IMG/VR virus record: IMGVR_UViG_3300044631_000551 | Coordinates: 20,439-84,438 of that record | DNA length: 64,000 nt | From: a virus | Strand: one strand, 5' to 3' | Notes under the pieces: model-generated | Told to the model about the DNA's origin: nothing | The model's database searches: none | The model's input: only the letters and a program-made list of their open reading frames with translations | Made by a program: the position numbers and the translations under genes | Part shown: one piece after another, positions 31,894 through 63,734 of the stretch | Layout of the letters: every line of letters starts with the position of its first letter | How positions within the stretch are numbered: position 1 is the stretch's first letter

Positions 31894-32157
31894 TTAGTTG
31901 CGGGTAAACAGCGTAGAACCGCCAGCGTTGTAAGCAGCAGCAATCATGCGACGGCTTGGGGTGCCAAGACGATAGGTGGTTTTGCCATTGCTATCAGTGT
32001 TGGTGTAAACAGCATAGCCTTCCGAACGAAGTTGACGGATGACTTCAGAAGCCGAAGTGACTTTGTAGCTGTTGGTGATTTGGGCGGTCGTCAGAGTCTT
32101 GCCGTTTTTCAGGGCATTCAGGACGGTTTCTTTCTGCGAGTTAGTATTCTTACTCAT
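31894..32157 (-). CDS. Small winged-helix/HTH protein (87 aa)
   Basis: LKNGKTLTTAQITNSYKVTS followed by ASEVIRQLRSEGYAVYTNT is a winged-helix pattern, then the wing GKTTYRLGTPSRRM. The C-terminus AAAYNAGGSTLF is seen in small cyanophage proteins of the same type. It probably binds DNA. It has its own strong early promoter, a 5-prime stem-loop in the leader, GAGGAAA as SD and a terminator, so it is an isolated and probably abundant early product. The target is unknown; the repeat arrays at early promoters are possible sites. Confidence 0.75.
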   Translation of the reverse strand: MSKNTNSQKETVLNALKNGKTLTTAQITNSYKVTSASEVIRQLRSEGYAVYTNTDSNGKTTYRLGTPSRRMIAAAYNAGGSTLFTRN

Positions 32158-32213: not shown

Positions 32214-32242
32214 ATTATACCCTATTTGGGGTTCAAAGTAAA
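32214..32242 (-). promoter_or_regulatory. Early-type promoter TTTACT-N17-TATAAT for the HTH gene
   Basis: Minus-strand TTTACT (32242-32237) and TATAAT (32219-32214) with a 17-base spacer, preceded by AATAGGG at the -10 edge, as in the other early promoters of this genome. Confidence 0.85.
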
Positions 32243-32293: not shown

Positions 32294-32374
32294 CAAGCCC
32301 TTGATTTATAAGGAGTTTTTAGGGGTGGTTTTCAGTCCACTTAAACGAAAAAACCTAATAAAATCAATGACTTA
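32294..32374. repeat. Early-promoter repeat copies, one in each orientation
   Basis: At 32361-32374 the plus strand reads AAATCAATGACTTA, the inverse of the repeat core AAGTCATTGATTTT. At about 32295-32320 an opposite-orientation copy reads AAGCCCTTGATTTATAAGG followed by AGTTTTT. The rest of 32243-32427 holds no ORF. Related arrays lie at 39411, 59093, 63174 and 63696. Confidence 0.65.
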
Positions 32375-34466: not shown

Positions 34467-35171
34467 CTATGCCAGACCCATCTCCGTCTTAGTGACAATA
34501 TAATCGCGAACCAAACCAGATCGTACGATATCGGTTTCTAAAAACTCAATGTGGTCAAATTTTTTCATTTTATCTAAGATACTCATGAAGTCATGAATAC
34601 CGCTCTTTTCTTTTGCATTCTTTAAGTCAGTTTGGCGGAAGTCACCGCAAAAGACAATCTTTGTCCCTTCGCCTACACGAGTGATAACTGAGTCAAGTTC
34701 CGCGAACGAAAGGTTCTGAATCTCATCTACAATCACTACTGCATTGTCAATAGTCAAACCACGAATGAACGAGGTTGACATGAATTCTATTACATTTTTA
34801 CTCTTGAGAATATCATAAGCATCACCGCGACTTAGCAGGTTGTTTACGATTTCTCGATAGGGTTGCTCATAAACTCTTAGTTTTTCATCCAATGTTCCTG
34901 GCATAAAGCCAACGTCGCGTGTTGCCACTGCGCTTCTAACAATATAGATCTTTTTGAATGTACCATATTCCAACATTTCCTTTAACGCAAGATATAACGA
35001 AATAAATGTTTTACCTGTACCAGCTATTCCGTGGAGAAGTAAGTGATTATCATAGAAAGAACGAAACACTATATTCTGCGTTTCTGTCATAGGATTTATC
35101 TCTCTTAACTCTAAGCCCAAACTATTAATCTTTACCACTTTCTTAGCTGCTGTTTTGGCGGTTCTTTTCAT
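34467..35171 (-). CDS. phoH: PhoH-family ATPase (234 aa)
   Basis: Walker A GIAGTGKT (residues 48-55) and Walker B VVIVDE (145-150) with VFCGDFRQTDL as sensor-like motif identify the PhoH P-loop ATPase. The SAVATRDVGFMPGTLDEKL block is highly typical of phage PhoH. The gene is common in marine phages of many hosts, and its role (RNA metabolism or nucleotide use) is unresolved. The N-terminal 20 residues are Lys-rich. It stands 7 bases upstream of the exported protein gene. Confidence 0.94.
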   Translation of the reverse strand: MKRTAKTAAKKVVKINSLGLELREINPMTETQNIVFRSFYDNHLLLHGIAGTGKTFISLYLALKEMLEYGTFKKIYIVRSAVATRDVGFMPGTLDEKLRVYEQPYREIVNNLLSRGDAYDILKSKNVIEFMSTSFIRGLTIDNAVVIVDEIQNLSFAELDSVITRVGEGTKIVFCGDFRQTDLKNAKEKSGIHDFMSILDKMKKFDHIEFLETDIVRSGLVRDYIVTKTEMGLA

Positions 35172-39366: not shown

Positions 39367-39394
39367 ATTATACTCCCCTGAAACCAGAAGTAAA
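39367..39394 (-). promoter_or_regulatory. Early promoter TTTACT-N16-TATAAT with repeat array
   Basis: Minus-strand TTTACT (39394-39389) and TATAAT (39372-39367), with GGGGAG at the -10 edge. Three repeat copies lie directly upstream (39411-39486). Confidence 0.85.
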
Positions 39395-39410
39395 ATAATA
39401 AACTCCTTAA

Positions 39411-39486
39411 AAATCAATAACTTAGCAAGGTATAAAAAACCCTTATAAATCAACGACTTATAAGGGTCTTAAAAATCAACGACTTA
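39411..39486 (-). repeat. Three-copy 14-base repeat array upstream of the SWIM-gene promoter
   Basis: Copies of the minus-strand core TAAGTYRTTGATTT lie at 39411-39424, 39447-39460 and 39473-39486, with start-to-start distances of 36 and 26 bases. The same spacing recurs in the arrays at 59093 (36, 25) and 63174 (37, 25). The middle copy also forms the loop and arm of a terminator. Confidence 0.8.
39434..39466 (-). terminator. Rho-independent terminator of the late curli/cyclase operon
   Basis: On the minus strand CCCTTATAA and TTATAAGGG form a perfect 9-bp stem around a 9-base loop and are followed by TTTTTT. It lies 26 bases after the cyclase stop codon. Confidence 0.88.
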
Positions 39487-39491
39487 GCGTA

Positions 39492-41519
39492 TTATTTTGA
39501 AGTCGCTCGGTAAATACCGTCCCAGCCATCTTTTCGCTTCATTCCGCTAATTCGCTCAATCATGATATCATAGTATTCAGCCATCTTTCCATCAAAATGG
39601 AACTTTAGTTGTTCGGCTGTCGCGATCGCAAGTTTGAACTCTTGGTTGTAATAATACTCCAAGAACAATTTGTGTTTATTGATTCCAGCTCGGTCATCAG
39701 GAACGACGGTGAAAATATGTACACCCTCTGTCTTTCCTTTTACCGCAATGTAGTCCAACTCAATAATCGGGAACTCGTCTTCAACGTATTCAGCAGTCTT
39801 CGGACCAATGATTAACTTAACACCGTAGGACTTACTTTGTCCTTCTAGTCTTGCAGCCAAGTTGACACCGTCCCCCAAACAAGTATAATCGAAACGCTGA
39901 ACAGACCCCATATTACCCACAACAACAACATCAGTGTTAATGCCAAGTCCCATACCAAACGCAGGAATCCCTTCTTTGGATATTTCTTCATTAAATTTCT
40001 CCAGGTCACCTAGCATAGCTAAACCTGTACGCAAAGCATTCTTCGCGTGTTCGGCATCATCAAGAGGAGCATTCCAAAAAGCCATCTGAGCGTCGCCAAT
40101 GTATTTGTCTAGCGTACCCTCGTTCTCAATAATCTTCTGTGTCATCGCAGTCATATAACGATTCATAATTTTAGTCAGACCTTGTACGTCTTTTCCGTAG
40201 TGTTCTGAAATAGTTGTAAAGCCACGAACGTCAGTAAACATAATTGACAGCTCGCGTGATTCGCCACCTAGTTGTAGCAGGTCTGGGTTTTCCTGTAGCT
40301 TCTCAACCATCGCTGGTGACAAGTATGTACCGAACTGCTTTTTAATTTGTTGCTTGAGTAGGAAGTTCTCGAGGAACTTAGCAAATGAAGCATGAGCGAA
40401 TATAACAAGCATGCCTAGAACTGGTAGCGAAGCATCAAGTAGCAGATACTCAGTTTTCCAGTAGTGATATGATGCATAACCAAACCCACCAGCAATTAGA
40501 ATAACCAACGGAAGAACTAGTTTCATTGGTGCTTTATAAACAGCTAGAATAATTAACAGACCAACGAATAGAATAATAACCAGCTCAAGGAAGTCAGCGT
40601 AGTCAGGGCGAACGATTGTGTTGCCATTTAGAACTGTTTGTAATAGATTAGCCTGAACTTCATGCGGATACATTGAGCCGACAGAAGTAGGAACTGGGTT
40701 GGCTACACCCTCAGCGGTTACACCCCAGATAAGAAACTTGCCAGCTGTATTTTCAGGTGTGATGTCAGCAGCTGATATAGAGTCAAACTCATTCCAATAA
40801 GAAATATAGACAGAGCCATCAGCAGTTGTTTTAATTGGCTCAAACTTAGGAATGCGAACAGCTTCAACGCCAGCTTCACCGACTTTCATTTGATACGAGA
40901 TATCACCAGCAGCGACGCGAATAGTTTCAAGCGCAACTGATGGATAGATTTGCTCATTAGCGCCAACGACCATTGGTAGTTTGCGGATTGTACCATCAAC
41001 GTCACCGATAGTAGAGGATACACCTACACCGCTTGACGCTTCAGCTAGAATTGTTACTGGCGGTAGAATACCAGACCAGCTGTTTACATAATCAAATGGA
41101 TTACCGCCGACAGTTGCGGTTCCTACGTGTGGTCCAAGACCTTCAATAGATTGGTCAGTTGGTGCTGACGAAATGATGGTGGCTCTTCGCGCGAGCGCGT
41201 CCGCGAACACTTGATCTTTACCGAAACGGTCTTCTTCTGAATAGATGACAGTAAATACGCTGATGCTGTCTTCTGCAGTTCTATCTAAAAGATTAGCAAA
41301 CTTATCGCGCGACCAAGACCACTGACCGTATTCTTTAATAGCTTTCTCGTCGATGTTGACTAATAGCACATCGCTGGACTTAATCTGCTCGTGGCTACGT
41401 TGTAGCGAGTCAAAGTAAGTTAGTCGTGTGGCTTCAACCAAGAATGGGTCATAGAAGCGCAGGGCGACCAAGAGTCCGAGTGTAATTAATGCTAGATACC
41501 ACTTTGTTAGGAATTTCAT
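39492..41519 (-). CDS. CHASE2-domain class III adenylate/guanylate cyclase (675 aa)
   Basis: The architecture is: membrane segment at residues 7-22; CHASE2 sensor domain at about 30-305 with LTYFDSLQRSHEQI, DVLLVNIDEKAIKEYGQWSW and PHEVQANLLQTVL; three membrane helices at about 310-378; and a class III cyclase domain at 420-605. Catalytic residues look complete: metal Asp430 (MFTDVRGFT) and Asp476, adenine-selecting Lys472 (DKYIGDAQ) and Asp550 (CLGDGVN), Asn553 and Arg557 (VNLAARLE). It would make cAMP (or cGMP) from inside the inner membrane with the sensor facing the periplasm. It is the last gene of the late curli operon and overlaps the FecR gene by 4 bases. A cyclase of this type in a phage is very unusual. 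Confidence 0.92.
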   Translation of the reverse strand: MKFLTKWYLALITLGLLVALRFYDPFLVEATRLTYFDSLQRSHEQIKSSDVLLVNIDEKAIKEYGQWSWSRDKFANLLDRTAEDSISVFTVIYSEEDRFGKDQVFADALARRATIISSAPTDQSIEGLGPHVGTATVGGNPFDYVNSWSGILPPVTILAEASSGVGVSSTIGDVDGTIRKLPMVVGANEQIYPSVALETIRVAAGDISYQMKVGEAGVEAVRIPKFEPIKTTADGSVYISYWNEFDSISAADITPENTAGKFLIWGVTAEGVANPVPTSVGSMYPHEVQANLLQTVLNGNTIVRPDYADFLELVIILFVGLLIILAVYKAPMKLVLPLVILIAGGFGYASYHYWKTEYLLLDASLPVLGMLVIFAHASFAKFLENFLLKQQIKKQFGTYLSPAMVEKLQENPDLLQLGGESRELSIMFTDVRGFTTISEHYGKDVQGLTKIMNRYMTAMTQKIIENEGTLDKYIGDAQMAFWNAPLDDAEHAKNALRTGLAMLGDLEKFNEEISKEGIPAFGMGLGINTDVVVVGNMGSVQRFDYTCLGDGVNLAARLEGQSKSYGVKLIIGPKTAEYVEDEFPIIELDYIAVKGKTEGVHIFTVVPDDRAGINKHKLFLEYYYNQEFKLAIATAEQLKFHFDGKMAEYYDIMIERISGMKRKDGWDGIYRATSK

Positions 41520-55166: not shown

Positions 55167-55597
55167 GAACCTATACTATCAGATTGTCATCACGACAAGA
55201 ATGCTACCTTTGCGGATAGCGGATGGCTGATTCGACAACCATCATAAGAGAACTGGTTTCAGTTCTCACATTAGAATAATGTTATCAGAAGCACACTAAG
55301 TCAATATGCTTTTGATAGCACTCTACTAGAGAGTGCGACCACTTCCGTTGAGAAACCCACTCGGAAGAACAGTTGGATCAGGCAGCTAGTGCTTGATTGT
55401 AGTAAGAGTCATTTGCTTTTACTTTTGTTTGCGCTGATTACGTCAGTCGCCTATCGAGTTGTCTGGTCGGATATCTTTCCCTGTCGAAGCCAGGACATCC
55501 CCATCAAAAACATTCTACTCGAAAACATTTTTGGTGGAGATGGGCGGAGTTGAACCGCCGTCCAAGAAACCTTCTCGTTCCTTCATACAACCATAAT
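55141..55597 (-). ncRNA. ssrA: Circularly permuted (two-piece) tmRNA
   Basis: The acceptor piece comes first: T-arm GGCGG-TTCAACT-CCGCC (55559-55543) and 3-prime end CATCTCCACCA (55542-55532). After about 29 bases of intervening sequence the coding piece begins at 55502 with GGGGATGTCCTGGCTTCGAC, the classic tmRNA 5-prime motif. GGGGATG and CATCTCC pair as a 7-bp acceptor stem with the G3:U70 alanine identity pair, which proves the two parts belong together in permuted order. The tag reading frame is at 55416-55378: resume GCA, tag ANDSYYNQALAA, stop TGA. Downstream are pseudoknot-like hairpins (GCACTCT-AGAGTGC; GAGAACTG-CAGTTCTC). Processing should give two RNAs. It rescues stalled ribosomes and tags proteins for proteolysis. 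Confidence 0.93.
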
Positions 55598-55603
55598 AAA
55601 TCT

Positions 55604-55632
55604 ATTATACTATATTTAGCGCGAAAAGTAAA
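55604..55632 (-). promoter_or_regulatory. Early-type promoter TTTACT-N17-TATAAT for tmRNA/tRNA operon
   Basis: Minus-strand TTTACT (55632-55627) and TATAAT (55609-55604) with a 17-base spacer. The expected start (about 55597) lies some 38 bases before the acceptor-piece T-arm; there is no room for a riboswitch. Confidence 0.87.
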
Positions 55633-59047: not shown

Positions 59048-59076
59048 AGTATAACCTGAAACCGAGTCCAGGTAAA
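59048..59076 (-). promoter_or_regulatory. Early-type promoter TTTACC-N17-TATACT with repeat array
   Basis: Minus-strand TTTACC (59076-59071) and TATACT (59053-59048) with a 17-base spacer, upstream of the KTSC/ligase operon. Confidence 0.8.
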
Positions 59077-59092
59077 AGAATAAACTTCTTAA

Positions 59093-59167
59093 AAATCAAT
59101 AACTTGCAGCCGACCCAAAAACCCAATAAAATCAATGACTTAAAAACCTATCGAAATCAATGGGTTG
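59093..59167 (-). repeat. Three-copy 14-base repeat array
   Basis: Minus-strand copies at 59093-59106, 59129-59142 and 59154-59167 (start distances 36 and 25). The array ends with the same GAGCCG...CTTGCAA flank seen at 63249 and 63734. No ORF lies in 59012-59190. Confidence 0.8.
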
Positions 59168-59190
59168 CAAGATCGCGGCTCGGACAGCTT

Positions 59191-59460
59191 TTAGAAGTCG
59201 TCTTCGCGCGCAATAGAAGTAGTGAATCTTGTTTCGATATAAACTTGGCTTGGCAGATATTCGTGAATCGTTTCTTCTTCTACCGCATTGTCAAGATATG
59301 CTTCCGCTTCGGCAAGGGAAGTAAAGTAAACGTCTAGACCATCGCGCTGAAAATTGAACCAGTTGACGCTGTCGCCCTCTGGCTGGTATTGCGGATAGAA
59401 TCGTGCTTGTTGTTTGACGTATCGACCAGTCGTGACTTGTCTTGTTCTATATCTGTTCAT
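59191..59460 (-). CDS. Small protein of unknown function (89 aa)
   Basis: A basic N-terminus (NRYRTRQVTTGRYVKQQARF) is followed by an alpha/beta segment VNWFNFQRDGLDVYFTSLAE and an acidic tail. It resembles small unnamed proteins of aquatic T4-like phages. No motif is visible. It lies downstream of the dCMP deaminase and before the repeat array. Confidence 0.62.
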   Translation of the reverse strand: MNRYRTRQVTTGRYVKQQARFYPQYQPEGDSVNWFNFQRDGLDVYFTSLAEAEAYLDNAVEEETIHEYLPSQVYIETRFTTSIAREDDF

Positions 59461-59484
59461 TAATGACTCCTAGTGAACTATTAT

Positions 59485-59952
59485 TTAGTCGAGGATGACA
59501 ATCGTCTCATGCTTCAGACCCCACTCACGAAACAACCTGAGCGTGTTGTCAAATCCATAGCGTTGCCAAACTTCAGGCTGTGACATGTAGTCGTTTTTCT
59601 CGCGCGTGGTGACTGTGACAACCCTAGTGATTCCGCGCTGGTAAATCTTGAATGCGCATTTCTGACAGGGATGAAGCGGATAGACGTAGATGGTCGACCC
59701 AGTAATGTTGTCATGCTCGCAATGATTCAGTGCGTTGTGTTCGGCATGTATAATGCGCTTGAGCTTCTCGTCGCGGTCAGCGTACCACTCGGGTTTGTCT
59801 TCCATGCTTGCAGGGAATCCATTATAACCCACCGATGCGATCGTTTTGTTTGGACGTGCGATGACTGCACCAACCTGAGTGGAAGGATCTTTACTCCAAC
59901 CAGCCACGACTGAAGCGAGGTGACCGAAACGCATGTCCCATTTGTTATTCAT
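59485..59952 (-). CDS. cd: dCMP deaminase (155 aa)
   Basis: Zinc site H69-A-E71 (IIHAEHNAL) and PCQKC (Cys96, Cys99) with the upstream FPASMEDKPEWYADRDEK region identify the ComEB/T4 Cd family of deoxycytidylate deaminases, which supply dUMP for thymidylate synthesis. The start at 59952 overlaps the preceding small gene by 8 bases. Length is slightly below T4 Cd (193 aa). Confidence 0.93.
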   Translation of the reverse strand: MNNKWDMRFGHLASVVAGWSKDPSTQVGAVIARPNKTIASVGYNGFPASMEDKPEWYADRDEKLKRIIHAEHNALNHCEHDNITGSTIYVYPLHPCQKCAFKIYQRGITRVVTVTTREKNDYMSQPEVWQRYGFDNTLRLFREWGLKHETIVILD

Positions 59953-60136
59953 CGTAATCAATCCAATTTCTTTCGCCGTCGCTAAACACCGCAGAATCAT
60001 CCCCTATGATTTCTACCTCTAGGTCATAGTGGTGAATGTCATAGTCAGTGAAGCTATGCTCTTCGTGATAGACACGGAATACAATCCCGTTGTCGAGTGT
60101 TCGGATCAGAAATCCTTTTAATCCCTTTGCGTTCAT
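59945..60136 (-). CDS. Small acidic protein (63 aa)
   Basis: A single small beta-rich domain: LKGFLIRTLDNGIVFRVYHE, DYDIHHYDLEVEIIGDDSAV. It is coupled at both ends (ATGA with the 42-aa gene, overlap with dCMP deaminase). I recall similar tiny proteins in cyanophages without function. Confidence 0.65.
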   Translation of the reverse strand: MNAKGLKGFLIRTLDNGIVFRVYHEEHSFTDYDIHHYDLEVEIIGDDSAVFSDGERNWIDYDE

Positions 60137-60261
60137 GGGAACATCTCGTCGGAGTCAAGCATTTCTTTCTGCTCTTCGCGTGTGGTCTTGTCTGTTGCTA
60201 TCACCCAGACCAGCGACACGAATGCAGTGATAATAAAGATAGCTAGGATTATGTTAGTCAT
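60133..60261 (-). CDS. Single-span membrane peptide (42 aa)
   Basis: Start overlaps the stop of the 209-aa gene (TAATG) and its stop overlaps the next start (ATGA). Residues 4-24 are hydrophobic (IILAIFIITAFVSLVWVIAT), followed by a charged tail. The tight coupling makes it a credible micro-gene. Confidence 0.65.
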   Translation of the reverse strand: MTNIILAIFIITAFVSLVWVIATDKTTREEQKEMLDSDEMFP

Positions 60262-60890
60262 TATTCTGCTTTCTTGAATTCTGTAATGTAGCTGTTGTCA
60301 GTAATCATCTCACTGCGATTCTCGACTGAGTAGATATTCATATCAATCTCATAGCCAGGATTTTTGGTGATAGGATTATACACCCAAGCATTATCATGCC
60401 AGATGATACGATTGTTAGGATAGACGTAGTAGTTGCCCTCGTCCATCTGAAACACGTGACCGCATTTGTGCTCTGGCGTTTCAGAGAAGTTCGTGTCAAG
60501 CATCGCTCGGTTCTCAAAAGACCAGTCAAGTGTAAACAAATAAATCCCACTGCGCTGTTCGCCCGAGGGAGTAATAAGTTTGGCACGTAGGCGATTGAGT
60601 CGCGACCGAACCTGAACGTCCACGTAGGAACTAAAGCAATCCCAGTAGACATGCTCGTTGAGCTGTCGAATAGGTGCATCAGGCTTCCAGCAAAATGCGG
60701 TGATTGGTCGGCGAGTCCAGTTGACGCCATTCTCTAGGAATGCTTCGAACAATGGAACTCGTCGCTCCATAGAAGCCACAGTATGAACGTCACAGGGAGT
60801 AAACTCACCATGACCTTTCTTATGATTAAACAGATACTCGTTTCGCATGAGACAAGTAATCGTTGGAATGTTATGATTGAGAAATGGCAT
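60261..60890 (-). CDS. Conserved phage protein (209 aa)
   Basis: A soluble protein with many aromatic residues: PTITCLMRNEYLFNHKKGHG, CWKPDAPIRQLNEHVYWDCF, SGIYLFTLDWSFENRAMLDT and GNYYVYPNNRIIWHDNAWVY. I have a memory of this type in cyanomyophages as an unnamed family. No catalytic motif was identified. Its start and stop overlap small genes on both sides. Confidence 0.65.
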   Translation of the reverse strand: MPFLNHNIPTITCLMRNEYLFNHKKGHGEFTPCDVHTVASMERRVPLFEAFLENGVNWTRRPITAFCWKPDAPIRQLNEHVYWDCFSSYVDVQVRSRLNRLRAKLITPSGEQRSGIYLFTLDWSFENRAMLDTNFSETPEHKCGHVFQMDEGNYYVYPNNRIIWHDNAWVYNPITKNPGYEIDMNIYSVENRSEMITDNSYITEFKKAE

Positions 60891-61042
60891 TATCGATACA
60901 CTTCGTCATTCATCTGTGGGGTGCGAATCAGCGGTTCTGGGCATTTTGTTGCAATGCCATACTTCTCGACGCGATCGGCAAGGTCATTACCTGTTACTGA
61001 ATTTCGCAACGCATCAATAATTTCGTTAATTGTAACTTGCAT
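60890..61042 (-). CDS. Small protein (50 aa)
   Basis: ATG at 61042 with GGAG 9 bases upstream, first gene behind an early promoter; its stop overlaps the next start (TAATG). The product is a short helical domain (INEIIDALRNSVTGNDLADR) and a Pro-rich end. Function unknown. Confidence 0.68.
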   Translation of the reverse strand: MQVTINEIIDALRNSVTGNDLADRVEKYGIATKCPEPLIRTPQMNDEVYR

Positions 61043-61078
61043 GTTTACTCCATATTATAGTGTTAGGCTACACCAATG

Positions 61079-61107
61079 ATTATACTGTAAAAGTGTGAAT
61101 TAGTAAA
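61079..61107 (-). promoter_or_regulatory. Early-type promoter TTTACT-N17-TATAAT
   Basis: Minus-strand TTTACT (61107-61102) and TATAAT (61084-61079) with a 17-base spacer; drives the 50-aa, 209-aa, 42-aa, 63-aa and dCMP deaminase genes. Confidence 0.85.
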
Positions 61108-61112
61108 ATAAT

Positions 61113-61370
61113 TCAGAGATTCCACCAGATAATGAATAAACCTGTGAGAATGCATAGCCCAATGATAAACGCATTGACCCACATCGGTGCAGGTGGTTTC
61201 TTGTATTGGTTCATATAGTCACCAGCATTAGTGAACTTGATATCACGTTCATGTGTCAACCTCTCGATTCGTTCAGCAGCCATAAGTAAAATCATAGACA
61301 AAGCGATGTTCTCCTGCTTGTAAGTTTCGCTTGCGGTTCGTAAAGTTTGTGCCAGTTCGATGTCATTCAT
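61113..61370 (-). CDS. Small C-terminally anchored membrane protein (85 aa)
   Basis: The ATG at 61370 lies in the end of the upstream gene. A helical N-terminus (IELAQTLRTASETYKQENIA) is followed by a C-terminal membrane segment (MWVNAFIIGLCILTGLFIIW). The function is unknown. Confidence 0.65.
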   Translation of the reverse strand: MNDIELAQTLRTASETYKQENIALSMILLMAAERIERLTHERDIKFTNAGDYMNQYKKPPAPMWVNAFIIGLCILTGLFIIWWNL

Positions 61371-61848
61371 TTTCTTCTTCCCATGCTTCCATGCCTTCGA
61401 TGATGCCAAACTGCTGGTCTAGGTCATCGTCTAGGATTTCGCGTGCTTCCTCGAGCGAAGACCATTGGACGAATTGATCCTCGCCGTCATAGAATCGACC
61501 AGCAAAGTTCATTCCTGGCTCATAGTACATGGCATCAACCGTGAAGCCAAGTTCTTCCACTAGGAAAGAATAGAATTCCACTGGCGGAGACCAAGCTGAT
61601 TCGAAAGCAAAATAGACACTGTTTTCACTGAGACGGTCAACGTGACCTGCGGTTTCACCACCGATGTCCCATTTGGTTCCCCAGTTATCGACGCGCCAGC
61701 TGTACCAGCTTTCGTCCTCTAGGAGTTGCGGTTGCATCGGATGGAATTCCTGACACAGCTTTCCTTCTCTAAAAGCAGTGATGGCTCGATCGATCTGAGT
61801 CGGATCTTCGTGAGTCAGTGTAAGTGTATTGTCGCACCAATTAGGCAT
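61363..61848 (-). CDS. YubB/DUF1281-like ferredoxin-like protein (161 aa)
   Basis: MPNWCDNTLTL at the N-terminus and WRVDNWGTKWDIGG, YFAFESAWSPPVEFYSFLVE later are the hallmark of the YubB/DUF1281 family found on plasmids and phages. The family has a ferredoxin-like fold and no known activity. GGAGAAAC precedes the ATG at 61848. The C-terminal 30 residues are very acidic. Confidence 0.85.
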   Translation of the reverse strand: MPNWCDNTLTLTHEDPTQIDRAITAFREGKLCQEFHPMQPQLLEDESWYSWRVDNWGTKWDIGGETAGHVDRLSENSVYFAFESAWSPPVEFYSFLVEELGFTVDAMYYEPGMNFAGRFYDGEDQFVQWSSLEEAREILDDDLDQQFGIIEGMEAWEEENE

Positions 61849-62038
61849 TGTTGTTTCTCCGTTGATAGTCAAACATTAGTATATTGAAGTCGCCCATGGC
61901 AGCTTCGTTGAGTGTTTCTTCGATGTCAGTTTCTTCGTCGATTGCGTCCCAGATGCGATTTGCTTCCTGTTCCGAGCATTCGAAGTATTGTTGCAGGTCA
62001 TCGACTGTGATTGTGATTGTGATTTGTCGTTTGCTCAT
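61841..62038 (-). CDS. Small acidic protein (65 aa)
   Basis: The N-terminus (RQITITITVDDLQQYFECSE) is a strand-helix unit, followed by an acidic helix. It is coupled to both neighbours by short overlaps. Function unknown. Confidence 0.62.
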   Translation of the reverse strand: MSKRQITITITVDDLQQYFECSEQEANRIWDAIDEETDIEETLNEAAMGDFNILMFDYQRRNNNA

Positions 62039-62232
62039 AGTGCGTTAATTCCCATGAATGCGTTGAAATCGTCATTAGGTTCTTCCTTTACAGTATGGAC
62101 GATTCTCTCATACCCTTTGTGCTGTGCGTAGTACCAGCGCATCTTCTCGTAGGCTTCCTCTAGGGAGTTGGCTTCGATCTCGGCGACGTCGTAGTTGACA
62201 GTCGTGTTTACTTGAAAGTGGAATCGTTTCAT
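62035..62232 (-). CDS. Small protein (65 aa)
   Basis: One beta-alpha-beta-like unit: RFHFQVNTTVNYDVAEIEAN, SLEEAYEKMRWYYAQHK. The A-x-SLEEAYE helix after a strand is seen in many tiny phage proteins. ATGA overlap with the 65-aa gene downstream; the start overlaps the sigma-like gene stop. Function unknown. Confidence 0.62.
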   Translation of the reverse strand: MKRFHFQVNTTVNYDVAEIEANSLEEAYEKMRWYYAQHKGYERIVHTVKEEPNDDFNAFMGINAL

Positions 62233-62441
62233 TATCGAATTCCTTTGTCGTTATACATGAAGTCACGAAGAAGTTCCTCGGCTCCAGGAATCGCTCGCAG
62301 TTTCGCAAGTGCTTCCTTCTCGATCTGACAGACGCGCATCTTAGTCAAGCCCATGTGCTCTGCGATCTCTTCGTGAGTATAGACGCGACCCCATTCAACT
62401 TGGGAATCGTCGCCGATGTAGGTGGATGCTTTACGTGCCAT
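62232..62441 (-). CDS. Sigma-70 region 4-like HTH protein (69 aa)
   Basis: VYTHEEIAEHMGLTKMRVCQ followed by IEKEALAKLR is a clear sigma region 4 helix-turn-helix, normally used to bind the -35 element. There is no region 2, so it is not a full sigma factor. It may act as an anti-sigma or co-activator for early or middle promoters. The SD TAAGGAAA lies 9 bases upstream. Confidence 0.85.
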   Translation of the reverse strand: MARKASTYIGDDSQVEWGRVYTHEEIAEHMGLTKMRVCQIEKEALAKLRAIPGAEELLRDFMYNDKGIR

Positions 62442-62455
62442 GTGATATTTCCTTA

Positions 62456-62665
62456 TTAGATAACAGAAGTGATGAAGTCATTGTCAACGGGAACACGAGT
62501 AGGCTTCCCAGTCAGCAGGTCATTGACAGGACGCCAGCCCTCGCCACGAACCAGAGCAATCCAGCTGTTGCCAGCCAGCGTCACCCGAGTGGCAAGATAT
62601 CCACGCTCGTTGAGAGTGCGTATCATTGACAGTTTGTAACTTTCGATATCGCGGTAATTCAGCAT
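62456..62665 (-). CDS. Small protein (69 aa)
   Basis: ATG at 62665 with CAGGAGAA upstream. The product (SMIRTLNERGYLATRVTLAG, NSWIALVRGEGWRPVNDLLT) is an alpha/beta unit. Function unknown. Confidence 0.65.
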   Translation of the reverse strand: MLNYRDIESYKLSMIRTLNERGYLATRVTLAGNSWIALVRGEGWRPVNDLLTGKPTRVPVDNDFITSVI

Positions 62666-62666
62666 A

Positions 62667-62873
62667 TTATTCTCCTGAGTCAAGACGGACAGGGCGGACG
62701 ATGTAGTCATACGAATAGCCGAAGCCATCGATTTCTTCCTGCATCAGTACATCCATGCGCGCAGTGGCTTGCTCGGGCGAGGAGAAGACACCGCAATAGT
62801 CAGGTGCAAAACCATAGCGGTCACGGAAGAGAACATACACGAGATGGTCGTGCGCCACAGTAAAGTCATTCAT
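62667..62873 (-). CDS. Small protein (68 aa)
   Basis: A short alpha/beta protein with HLVYVLFRDRYGFAPDYCGV and SSPEQATARMDVLMQEEI. Family unknown. It starts directly after the 74-aa gene. Confidence 0.62.
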   Translation of the reverse strand: MNDFTVAHDHLVYVLFRDRYGFAPDYCGVFSSPEQATARMDVLMQEEIDGFGYSYDYIVRPVRLDSGE

Positions 62874-62874
62874 A

Positions 62875-63099
62875 TTAGTTTCTCACTTGGTAGGTAGACA
62901 GCACCCATTTGGCGCGATTAATCAGCTGGCGCGACCACTCATAGTCTTTACGTTCGATAGCCATTTGCGCGTCAGACATCATAGACATAGCGATCATGTG
63001 GTAGTCAGTATAGGGGATAGCGGAGTCAATAGATTCCTTCATATCGTGTTCGGTACAGCCAAAACATGCGCGTTCGCGCTCAAATTTACTCAGGTTCAT
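62875..63099 (-). CDS. Small helical protein (74 aa)
   Basis: The SD TAAGGAAA precedes the ATG at 63099 by about 10 bases; an in-frame ATG at 63120 coincides with the transcription start and is less likely. The product (ERACFGCTEHDMKESIDSAI, SMMSDAQMAIERKDYEWSRQ) is helical with a CxxC. First gene of an early operon under a repeat-array promoter. Confidence 0.68.
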   Translation of the reverse strand: MNLSKFERERACFGCTEHDMKESIDSAIPYTDYHMIAMSMMSDAQMAIERKDYEWSRQLINRAKWVLSTYQVRN

Positions 63100-63127
63100 A
63101 GTTTGCGTTTCCTTATTCATTACAGCT

Positions 63128-63156
63128 ATTGTACTCCCGTTGGGCTGGAAAGTCAA
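63128..63156 (-). promoter_or_regulatory. Early-type promoter TTGACT-N17-TACAAT with repeat array
   Basis: Minus-strand TTGACT (63156-63151) and TACAAT (63133-63128) with a 17-base spacer and GGGAG at the -10 edge. Confidence 0.83.
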
Positions 63157-63173
63157 GCATCGAAACTCCTTGA

Positions 63174-63249
63174 AAATCAATGACTTGCAGAATCCCTGGA
63201 AAACCGAGTAAAATCAAGGACTTGTAACCCTATTGGAATCAATGACTTG
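63174..63249 (-). repeat. Three-copy 14-base repeat array
   Basis: Minus-strand copies at 63174-63187, 63211-63224 and 63236-63249 (start distances 37 and 25). Copies 2 and 3 lie over the 3-prime end of the 75-aa gene, so its last residues are encoded by the array. Confidence 0.8.
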
Positions 63250-63441
63250 CGAGACCACGGCTCTTGGACGCTCGATCGGCTGGACTGTGACCTCGGTCCA
63301 CTCAGGGAAGTTCTTCTGAGCCCAGTTGACTAGGCGAGTGTTTGTGGCTTTGATGCCTTTTTGCGTCTTTGCGAACACAGGCTTCTCGCGGATGTATACG
63401 AGTTCGTTCTTTTCGAAGACCTCTAGGCGAAGAATTCTCAT
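63214..63441 (-). CDS. Small basic protein (75 aa)
   Basis: LRLEVFEKNELVYIREKPVF and TNTRLVNWAQKNFPEWTEVT suggest a small alpha/beta fold. The final 12 residues (SQVIDSNRVTSP) come from the repeat array, so the gene was probably extended into it. It overlaps the upstream membrane peptide gene by 4 bases. Confidence 0.65.
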   Translation of the reverse strand: MRILRLEVFEKNELVYIREKPVFAKTQKGIKATNTRLVNWAQKNFPEWTEVTVQPIERPRAVVSQVIDSNRVTSP

Positions 63442-63608
63442 TTCTTTTCACCTGCTTTAAGGAACCACAGGCTCAAGCCAACCGACACACCAGTCACGAT
63501 AGCCAGCGTACGAATTTCATCAGGGTTAGCCAGCGTCAGGGCGAACACGACACAGAACAGAGCCACGGTCATCAGACCCAGCGCGAAGTTGTTATAGATT
63601 GCTTTCAT
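63438..63608 (-). CDS. Two-span membrane peptide (56 aa)
   Basis: ATG at 63608, with SD AAGGAAA about 7 bases upstream. Membrane segments at residues 9-27 (ALGLMTVALFCVVFALTLA) and 34-50 (LAIVTGVSVGLSLWFLKA) with a short polar loop. First gene behind a repeat-array promoter. Function unknown. Confidence 0.68.
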   Translation of the reverse strand: MKAIYNNFALGLMTVALFCVVFALTLANPDEIRTLAIVTGVSVGLSLWFLKAGEKK

Positions 63609-63633
63609 TTGCATTTCCTTATTCATTACAGTC

Positions 63634-63662
63634 ATTATACTCCTATGTCAGGAGGAAGTCAA
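63634..63662 (-). promoter_or_regulatory. Early-type promoter TTGACT-N17-TATAAT with repeats
   Basis: Minus-strand TTGACT (63662-63657) and TATAAT (63639-63634) with a 17-base spacer and GGAG at the -10 edge. The leader is almost the same as that of the promoter at 63128. Confidence 0.87.
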
Positions 63663-63695
63663 GCATTAAAAACGACTAGTCTTAAAACCCCTTGC

Positions 63696-63734
63696 AAATC
63701 AATGACTTATAAATCCTTCAAAATCAATGACTTG
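63696..63734 (-). repeat. Two-copy 14-base repeat array
   Basis: Minus-strand copies at 63696-63709 and 63721-63734 (start distance 25), followed by the GAGCCGCAG flank. A third copy, expected about 36 bases nearer the promoter, is missing or decayed. Confidence 0.75.

Follow-up and report, generated by a model that had tools for sequence, protein, structure and literature searches.

Arrays of putative IHF sites upstream of early promoters in a T4-like phage and in other viral DNA

What binds a short repeat that recurs with conserved spacing just upstream of several early promoters of a phage, and does the binder belong to the phage or to its host? The question is raised by the IMG/VR virus record IMGVR_UViG_3300044631_000551, a viral contig of 84,438 bp in all, bases 20439–84438 of which constitute the window analyzed here (64,000 nucleotides; coordinates are window positions) and encode tail proteins and gp32 of T4 type, 12 tRNAs and one transfer-messenger RNA (tmRNA). 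The record comes from a T4-like virus of bacteria. The answer proposed below, at a probability of roughly 0.78 as judged from sequence, is that the repeats are arrays of high-quality sites for integration host factor (IHF), which the phage would have placed directly upstream of its sigma-70 early promoters.

The repeat element in the window, in phage DLP6 and in other viral DNA

An initial annotation of the window had reported a 14-base motif recurring in arrays upstream of early promoters, with a bound regulator as the suggested cause; the recurrence was confirmed at every place given, each copy starting one base lower. Alignment of 13 copies makes this 14-mer the core of an approximately 27-bp element, (C/T)AAGTCATTGATTTTnAAGGgGTTTTt, conserved from the C/T preceding the first A to about +26 (AAGGnGTTTT included), and the length had thus been under-called. 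The copies occupy five gaps at gene ends, all five clusters preceding, as claimed, a promoter of the T4 early sigma-70 type (TTTACT or TTGACT, 16–17 bases, TATAAT), and all lie on the minus strand except the one at 32295. Copy-to-copy steps are 26/36, 25/36 and 25/37 in the triplets ending at 39410, 59092 and 63173, respectively, and 25 in the array at 63695, in agreement with the 36–37 and 25–26 bases first noted; the fifth cluster is an inverted pair (32360 and 32295, 65 bp apart). The last copy had been said to end about 20 bases before the -35, a figure that did not hold: 15, 15 and 16 bases were measured in the three triplets (in the order just given), 32 in the 63695 array and 52 at the 32295 pair. 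In the triplets, positions from about -65 to -52 are taken up by the last copy, with its T-tract near -42, where the alpha subunits of RNA polymerase make contact. At up to one mismatch to the 14-mer, the nine matches in the whole contig all lie on one and the same strand and a reversed control gives zero, while at up to three mismatches the window yields 32 matches vs. 16.6 ± 4.6 in shuffles, the extra weak ones being mostly noise.

The same element is present in Stenotrophomonas phage DLP6 (KU682439.2), in 24 exact copies at 15 intergenic places of that genome (e.g., 34653–34728), mostly as pairs 25 bp apart, with one triplet of 25 and 37 bp, sitting between a gene stop and a TTTACTT...GTATAAT T4-type sigma-70 promoter. 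These are almost certainly the 25 PHIRE “phage promoters” of the 2017 DLP6 paper, 22 of which form pairs located ahead of gene clusters (PMC5349666), an identification based on number and arrangement. The published label speaks for the repeats being promoters themselves, whether in the PHIRE sense or for a phage RNA polymerase, but 21 of the 24 DLP6 copies face against transcription, a separate -35/-10 promoter follows the repeats, and viral contigs carry outward-pointing promoters on both sides of them, which makes this explanation hardly credible. A T7-type promoter (17 nt plus GG), considered because of the motif shape, was rejected on the same two grounds of orientation and separate sigma-70 promoters. 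The window copies, in contrast to those of DLP6, run with transcription; as strand use is opposite in the two phages, the element should act as duplex DNA and not as RNA, and an RNA element is excluded as a general explanation.

Strand use also bears on whether the repeats are parts of the preceding operon's intrinsic terminators, their resemblance to a protein site being incidental. The arrays do begin at gene ends, and a hairpin with a T-run occurs at window copy 39446 and at copies in L059, L070, L071, L082 and L115; most copies, however, have no left arm, a hairpin plus U-run being found in some copies only, the strand that would appear in the RNA is not the same in DLP6 as in the window, and the promoter-side position and half-turn spacing would be left unexplained, so that terminators are a very improbable account.

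How far does the arrangement extend? A scan of viral DNA for two copies 19–49 bp apart (its counts are lower bounds) found the pattern in at least 120 viral stretches vs. 12 for a reversed-pattern control. Among the 74 non-redundant pairs, spacing clusters at 25–27 and 36–38 bp, with a further group at 41–48, and its mean phase is about half a turn at 10.5 bp per turn (resultant 0.55, n = 74); under a simple model of open reading frames (ORFs), 69 of them lie outside any ORF, against an expectation of 13.5. Equal occurrence in coding DNA, or spacing not conserved elsewhere, had been named beforehand as outcomes speaking against a bound regulator, and the idea withstood both. Allowing up to two mismatches, an outward-pointing promoter was found downstream of 28/72 pairs and upstream of 23/71, vs. 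6–8 for promoters pointing inward and about 5 around randomly chosen positions. The array-bearing contigs include phages with B-family as well as phages with A-family DNA polymerase. The trait is patchy, as no arrays were found in T4, four T4-like cyanophages, Mendera and X1; cyanophage hosts are not known to have IHF, and the absence from cyanophages would fit that. Comparing synthetic consensus arrays with named phages by BLAST gave, DLP6 excepted, mostly weak single-site matches (E 0.1–6), whose named hosts are Proteobacteria, which is suggestive but weak, and a literature search for the exact 14-mer returned an unrelated pig gene paper as the sole match.

Host IHF as the candidate binder

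The IHF consensus is given as WATCAANNNNTTR / YAANNNNTTGATW (PMC4245941, PMC4585315), and all 13 array copies match YAANNNNTTGATW, accounting for 13 of its 23 matches in the contig; even the copy at 59153 (CAACCCATTGATTTC) differs from GTCA solely within the four free positions of the consensus. The T-tract of a strong site (+22 to +26) is present in most window copies, T is likewise enriched at +21 to +25 from the first A in the 74 viral pairs, and the base before AAG, which was outside the scan pattern, is T in 86–91% of these pairs. Two sites of the lambda record, which we take to be H' and H1 (IHF sites of attP), read CAACAAATTGATA-8 nt-TTTTTT and TAAGTAGTTGATT, respectively; both share the core YAANNNNTTGATW with the window copies, and H' has its T-tract, 8 nt on, at the same place as the element. 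The lambda sites differ in serving integration, whereas the window sites precede promoters and have no integrase signature nearby. Tyrosine-integrase arm sites were rejected as an identity of the repeats, a motif search of the ORFs having found no integrase signature in 120 loci. A search of 27 phage records, among them the window contig and DLP6, turned up no DNABII protein (phage-encoded IHF/HU).

Bacterial chromosomes supply further evidence. The element was found at 13 loci in bacterial genomes, four of which are one conserved SAR92/Porticoccaceae chromosomal locus adjoining DnaA boxes arranged like the core of a DnaA-reactivating sequence (DARS). A second search of Porticoccaceae/SAR92, using the DnaA-box pattern only and requiring no IHF-type site, returned 15 genomes, each with one IHF-type site exactly at -141 and a second exactly at -111 relative to the core; none of the 30 sites has more than one mismatch (an N occurs in one of them), their free bases are G24/C6, T28, C24/T5 and A28 of 30, and T-runs follow. 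Seven of the genomes with a DARS-like locus were sampled for the IhfA family; five have a protein that exceeds the IhfA cut-off, and in the remaining two the family members score lower. In E. coli DARS2, footprinting showed two IHF sites in tandem (IBS1-2), which are required for activity (PMC4245941), and the Porticoccaceae/SAR92 locus resembles it in its two tandem sites and the phage arrays in its element; the differences are that DARS serves control of DnaA nucleotide exchange, beside DnaA boxes, and that its sites are 16 bp apart in E. coli (13-mers 3 bp apart) and 30 bp apart in Porticoccaceae, in place of the half-turn steps of phage arrays. Since the region upstream of E. coli mutH holds no strict match to YAANNNNTTGATW and one looser match, E. 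coli DARS2 is without this exact element, and the DARS argument rests on Porticoccaceae. The DARS-like locus (L137, L140-L142, L289-L303) adjoins, in several genomes, dapA-, bamC- and purC-like genes (by eye from sequence), a neighborhood unlike that of E. coli DARS2, which is near mutH.

The company of DnaA boxes at the DARS-like loci, together with direct repeats at fixed spacing, might be taken to favor iterons or parts of a replication origin, as the initial annotation had also suggested. The copies are, however, scattered at operon starts over 15 promoter regions in DLP6 and five places in the contig and do not cluster at one origin (no search for an initiator gene, or for DnaA boxes near phage arrays, was made), and the GC-skew check recommended earlier, read in 2-kb steps, shows no sharp switch where the arrays lie; a replication role is accordingly very unlikely.

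A rival closer to what was first proposed is that the copies are operators of a phage-encoded activator or repressor, be it the HTH_39 protein (31894), the SWIM-like protein (38946), the sigma-4-like protein (62232) or another. Dense, strand-consistent arrays are typical of operators, as is extra conservation within the “free” positions of the IHF consensus, and HTH_39 is common to the window and DLP6, both of which have arrays. Of the 33 records tested, however, most with arrays though many are fragments, just 2 yielded HTH_39, and HTVC008M and Melnitz have a relative of it (by tblastn) and no arrays; the distribution of HTH_39 does not fit that of the arrays, and it was rejected as the binder. 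The SWIM-like protein matches no PHROG family, and the same element stands at bacterial DARS-like loci, where a phage protein is not expected. An operator of the phage's own is therefore unlikely. What stands of the earlier suggestion is a bound regulator, in that the geometry is conserved, recurs in other phages and involves intergenic sites; what is not supported is a phage origin for it. Taking together the consensus match, the T-tract of lambda H', the Porticoccaceae DARS-like sites and the DNABII-free phage records, the copies are very probably binding sites of host IHF and not of a phage regulator.

Proposed effect of the arrays and points that weigh against it

The bend that IHF puts into DNA exceeds 120 degrees and can reach about 180, and one bound IHF occupies approximately 34 bp (PMC4245941, PMC8407004). 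Host IHF, already present as the phage DNA enters, would bind the array and bend the DNA sharply at each site, its presence at entry making early promoters a sensible target. Half-integer helical spacings (about 25.5, 36.5 and 47 bp) would put neighboring sites on opposite faces of the helix, so that bends alternate and the DNA could take up a compact zig-zag without self-collision; two bends 25–37 bp apart on one face would drive the DNA into itself, and the half-turn rule may thus reflect the needs of repeated IHF bends. The bent and wrapped upstream DNA would then be offered to the alpha subunits of RNA polymerase (the UP-element region), raising early transcription, and the sites could be used in either orientation, as an architectural element can be (those of DLP6 being mostly opposite to those of the window). 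Activation of the promoter is somewhat favored as the main effect; alternatives compatible with IHF binding are that the arrays relieve silencing by other nucleoid proteins, keep adjacent operons apart or titrate IHF.

There is a precedent in phage Mu: transcription from the early promoter Pe is impaired when the IHF site is deleted (PMC3820752), a case of host IHF bound near a phage's early promoter influencing early transcription. Mu differs in being a transposing temperate phage with one IHF site described, whereas the window phage is T4-like with half-turn arrays at many promoters. The lambda pL promoter is also an IHF-dependent early promoter. IHF near phage early promoters is hence known, whereas half-turn-phased arrays upstream of many promoters appear to be new. 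A broader and quite tentative proposal is that half-turn-phased arrays of 2–5 IHF sites might be a widespread, unrecognised phage cis-element, a defined zig-zag scaffold of IHF and DNA ahead of early promoters that many phage lineages exploiting host IHF would have acquired, possibly also drawing IHF off host loci as phage copies accumulate.

Several observations weigh against IHF-site arrays at early promoters. A position weight matrix trained on the window scores lambda H1/H2/H' only modestly (6–9), and IHF binding at the Porticoccaceae chromosomal sites is itself inferred by homology, their 30-bp spacing, moreover, not being half-turn. T4 has no arrays although its host has IHF, an absence that does not discriminate. 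An array is present at only half of the window's early promoters, five strong promoters of the same early type having none (30381, 38944, 52558, 55632 and 61107). The 34-bp footprint of one IHF (PMC4245941) exceeds the 25-bp neighbor spacing; neighbors at 25 bp may compete for IHF, and it is uncertain whether every copy can be occupied at once. Finally, phage arrays show a strong S-Y-Y-R preference at the four “free” bases (mostly G/C, T/C, C/T and A/G, also when the search left them free), which goes beyond the textbook IHF consensus. This last objection may be answered by the same preference at the DARS-like sites: S-Y-Y-R, seen in arrays and chromosomal sites alike, can be read as an addition to the consensus and not in conflict with it, since freedom at these positions describes the textbook consensus and is not strictly required of an IHF site.

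Should the proposal be true, lytic phages would be unexpectedly dependent on a host nucleoid protein at their early promoters, and elements misnamed promoters in a published phage (DLP6) would be explained. DLP6 and its Stenotrophomonas host would offer a system for direct testing, the half-turn rule a probe of the tolerance for closely spaced IHF bends, and the motif a means of spotting IHF-using phages in metagenomes; a by-product is the DARS-like locus in uncultured marine gammaproteobacteria.

Feature coordinates and accompanying observations

Table 1. Putative IHF-type sites and adjacent predicted promoters in the window.
Feature	Coordinates	Strand	Sequence or remark
IHF-type site, copy A of array 63695-63733	63720..63733	-	CAAGTCATTGATTTT
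IHF-type site, copy B of array 63695-63733, 25 bp from A	63695..63708	-	TAAGTCATTGATTTG + AAGGGGTTTT
Sigma-70 promoter TTGACT-17-TATAAT, downstream of 63695-63733 array	63634..63662	-	-35 at 63662
IHF-type site, copy A of 63173-63248 triplet, in 3' end of ORF 63214-63441	63235..63248	-	CAAGTCATTGATTCC
IHF-type site, copy B of 63173-63248 triplet, 25 bp from A	63210..63223	-	CAAGTCCTTGATTTT
IHF-type site, copy C of 63173-63248 triplet, 37 bp from B	63173..63186	-	CAAGTCATTGATTTT + CAAGGAGTTT
Promoter TTGACT-17-TACAAT, downstream of 63173-63248 triplet	63128..63156	-	-35 at 63156
IHF-type site, copy A of 59092-59166 triplet	59153..59166	-	CAACCCATTGATTTC
IHF-type site, copy B of 59092-59166 triplet, 25 bp from A	59128..59141	-	TAAGTCATTGATTTT + ATTGGGTTTTT
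IHF-type site, copy C of 59092-59166 triplet, 36 bp from B	59092..59105	-	CAAGTTATTGATTTT
T4-type early promoter TTTACC-17-TATACT, downstream of 59092-59166 triplet	59048..59076	-	-35 at 59076
IHF-type site, copy A of 39410-39485 triplet, directly past stop of gene 39492-41519	39472..39485	-	TAAGTCGTTGATTTT
IHF-type site, copy B of 39410-39485 triplet, 26 bp from A	39446..39459	-	also hairpin loop
IHF-type site, copy C of 39410-39485 triplet, 36 bp from B	39410..39423	-	TAAGTTATTGATTTT
T4-type early promoter TTTACT-16-TATAAT, downstream of 39410-39485 triplet	39367..39394	-	-35 at 39394
IHF-type site, first of two-copy region	32360..32373	-	TAAGTCATTGATTTT + ATTAGGTTTTTT
IHF-type site, inverted, 65 bp from 32360 copy	32295..32308	+	CAAGCCCTTGATTTA + TAAGGAGTTTTT
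T4-type early promoter TTTACT-17-TATAAT, before HTH_39 gene (31894-32157)	32214..32242	-	-35 at 32242

Two of these copies are interwoven with other signals. At 63214-63216, a TGA within array copy B (63210) is the stop codon of ORF 63214-63441, the 3' end of which the array overlaps, and at 39440-39475 a terminator-like hairpin (CCCTTATAA...TTATAAGGG-TTTTTT) has the IHF-type site as its loop, terminator and site being nested, as they also are in the five other loci named above for their hairpins.

Regular arrays of 4–5 copies occur in L113 (2414-2535), L129 (90-208) and L044 (919-1082), with periods of 27 bp, 35 bp and alternating 37/38 bp, respectively. A related palindromic class, TAACYCATTGATTTTCAAYGGGTTA, likewise recurring at 25 bp, was seen in L171, L173, L183, L200 and L203 (contigs of up to 274 kb) and belongs perhaps to phages of another host phylum. 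One contig of an Alteromonadaceae metagenome-assembled genome (L131, L132, L139) contains AAGTCATTGATT(T) repeats packed into several dense clusters, with approximately 28-bp and shorter spacing. The phage-encoded tmRNA of the window (55287-55624, minus strand, beside the 12 tRNA genes) carries the tag VKANDSYYNQALAA, which is also found in the near relative L033, while the tag of L017 differs.

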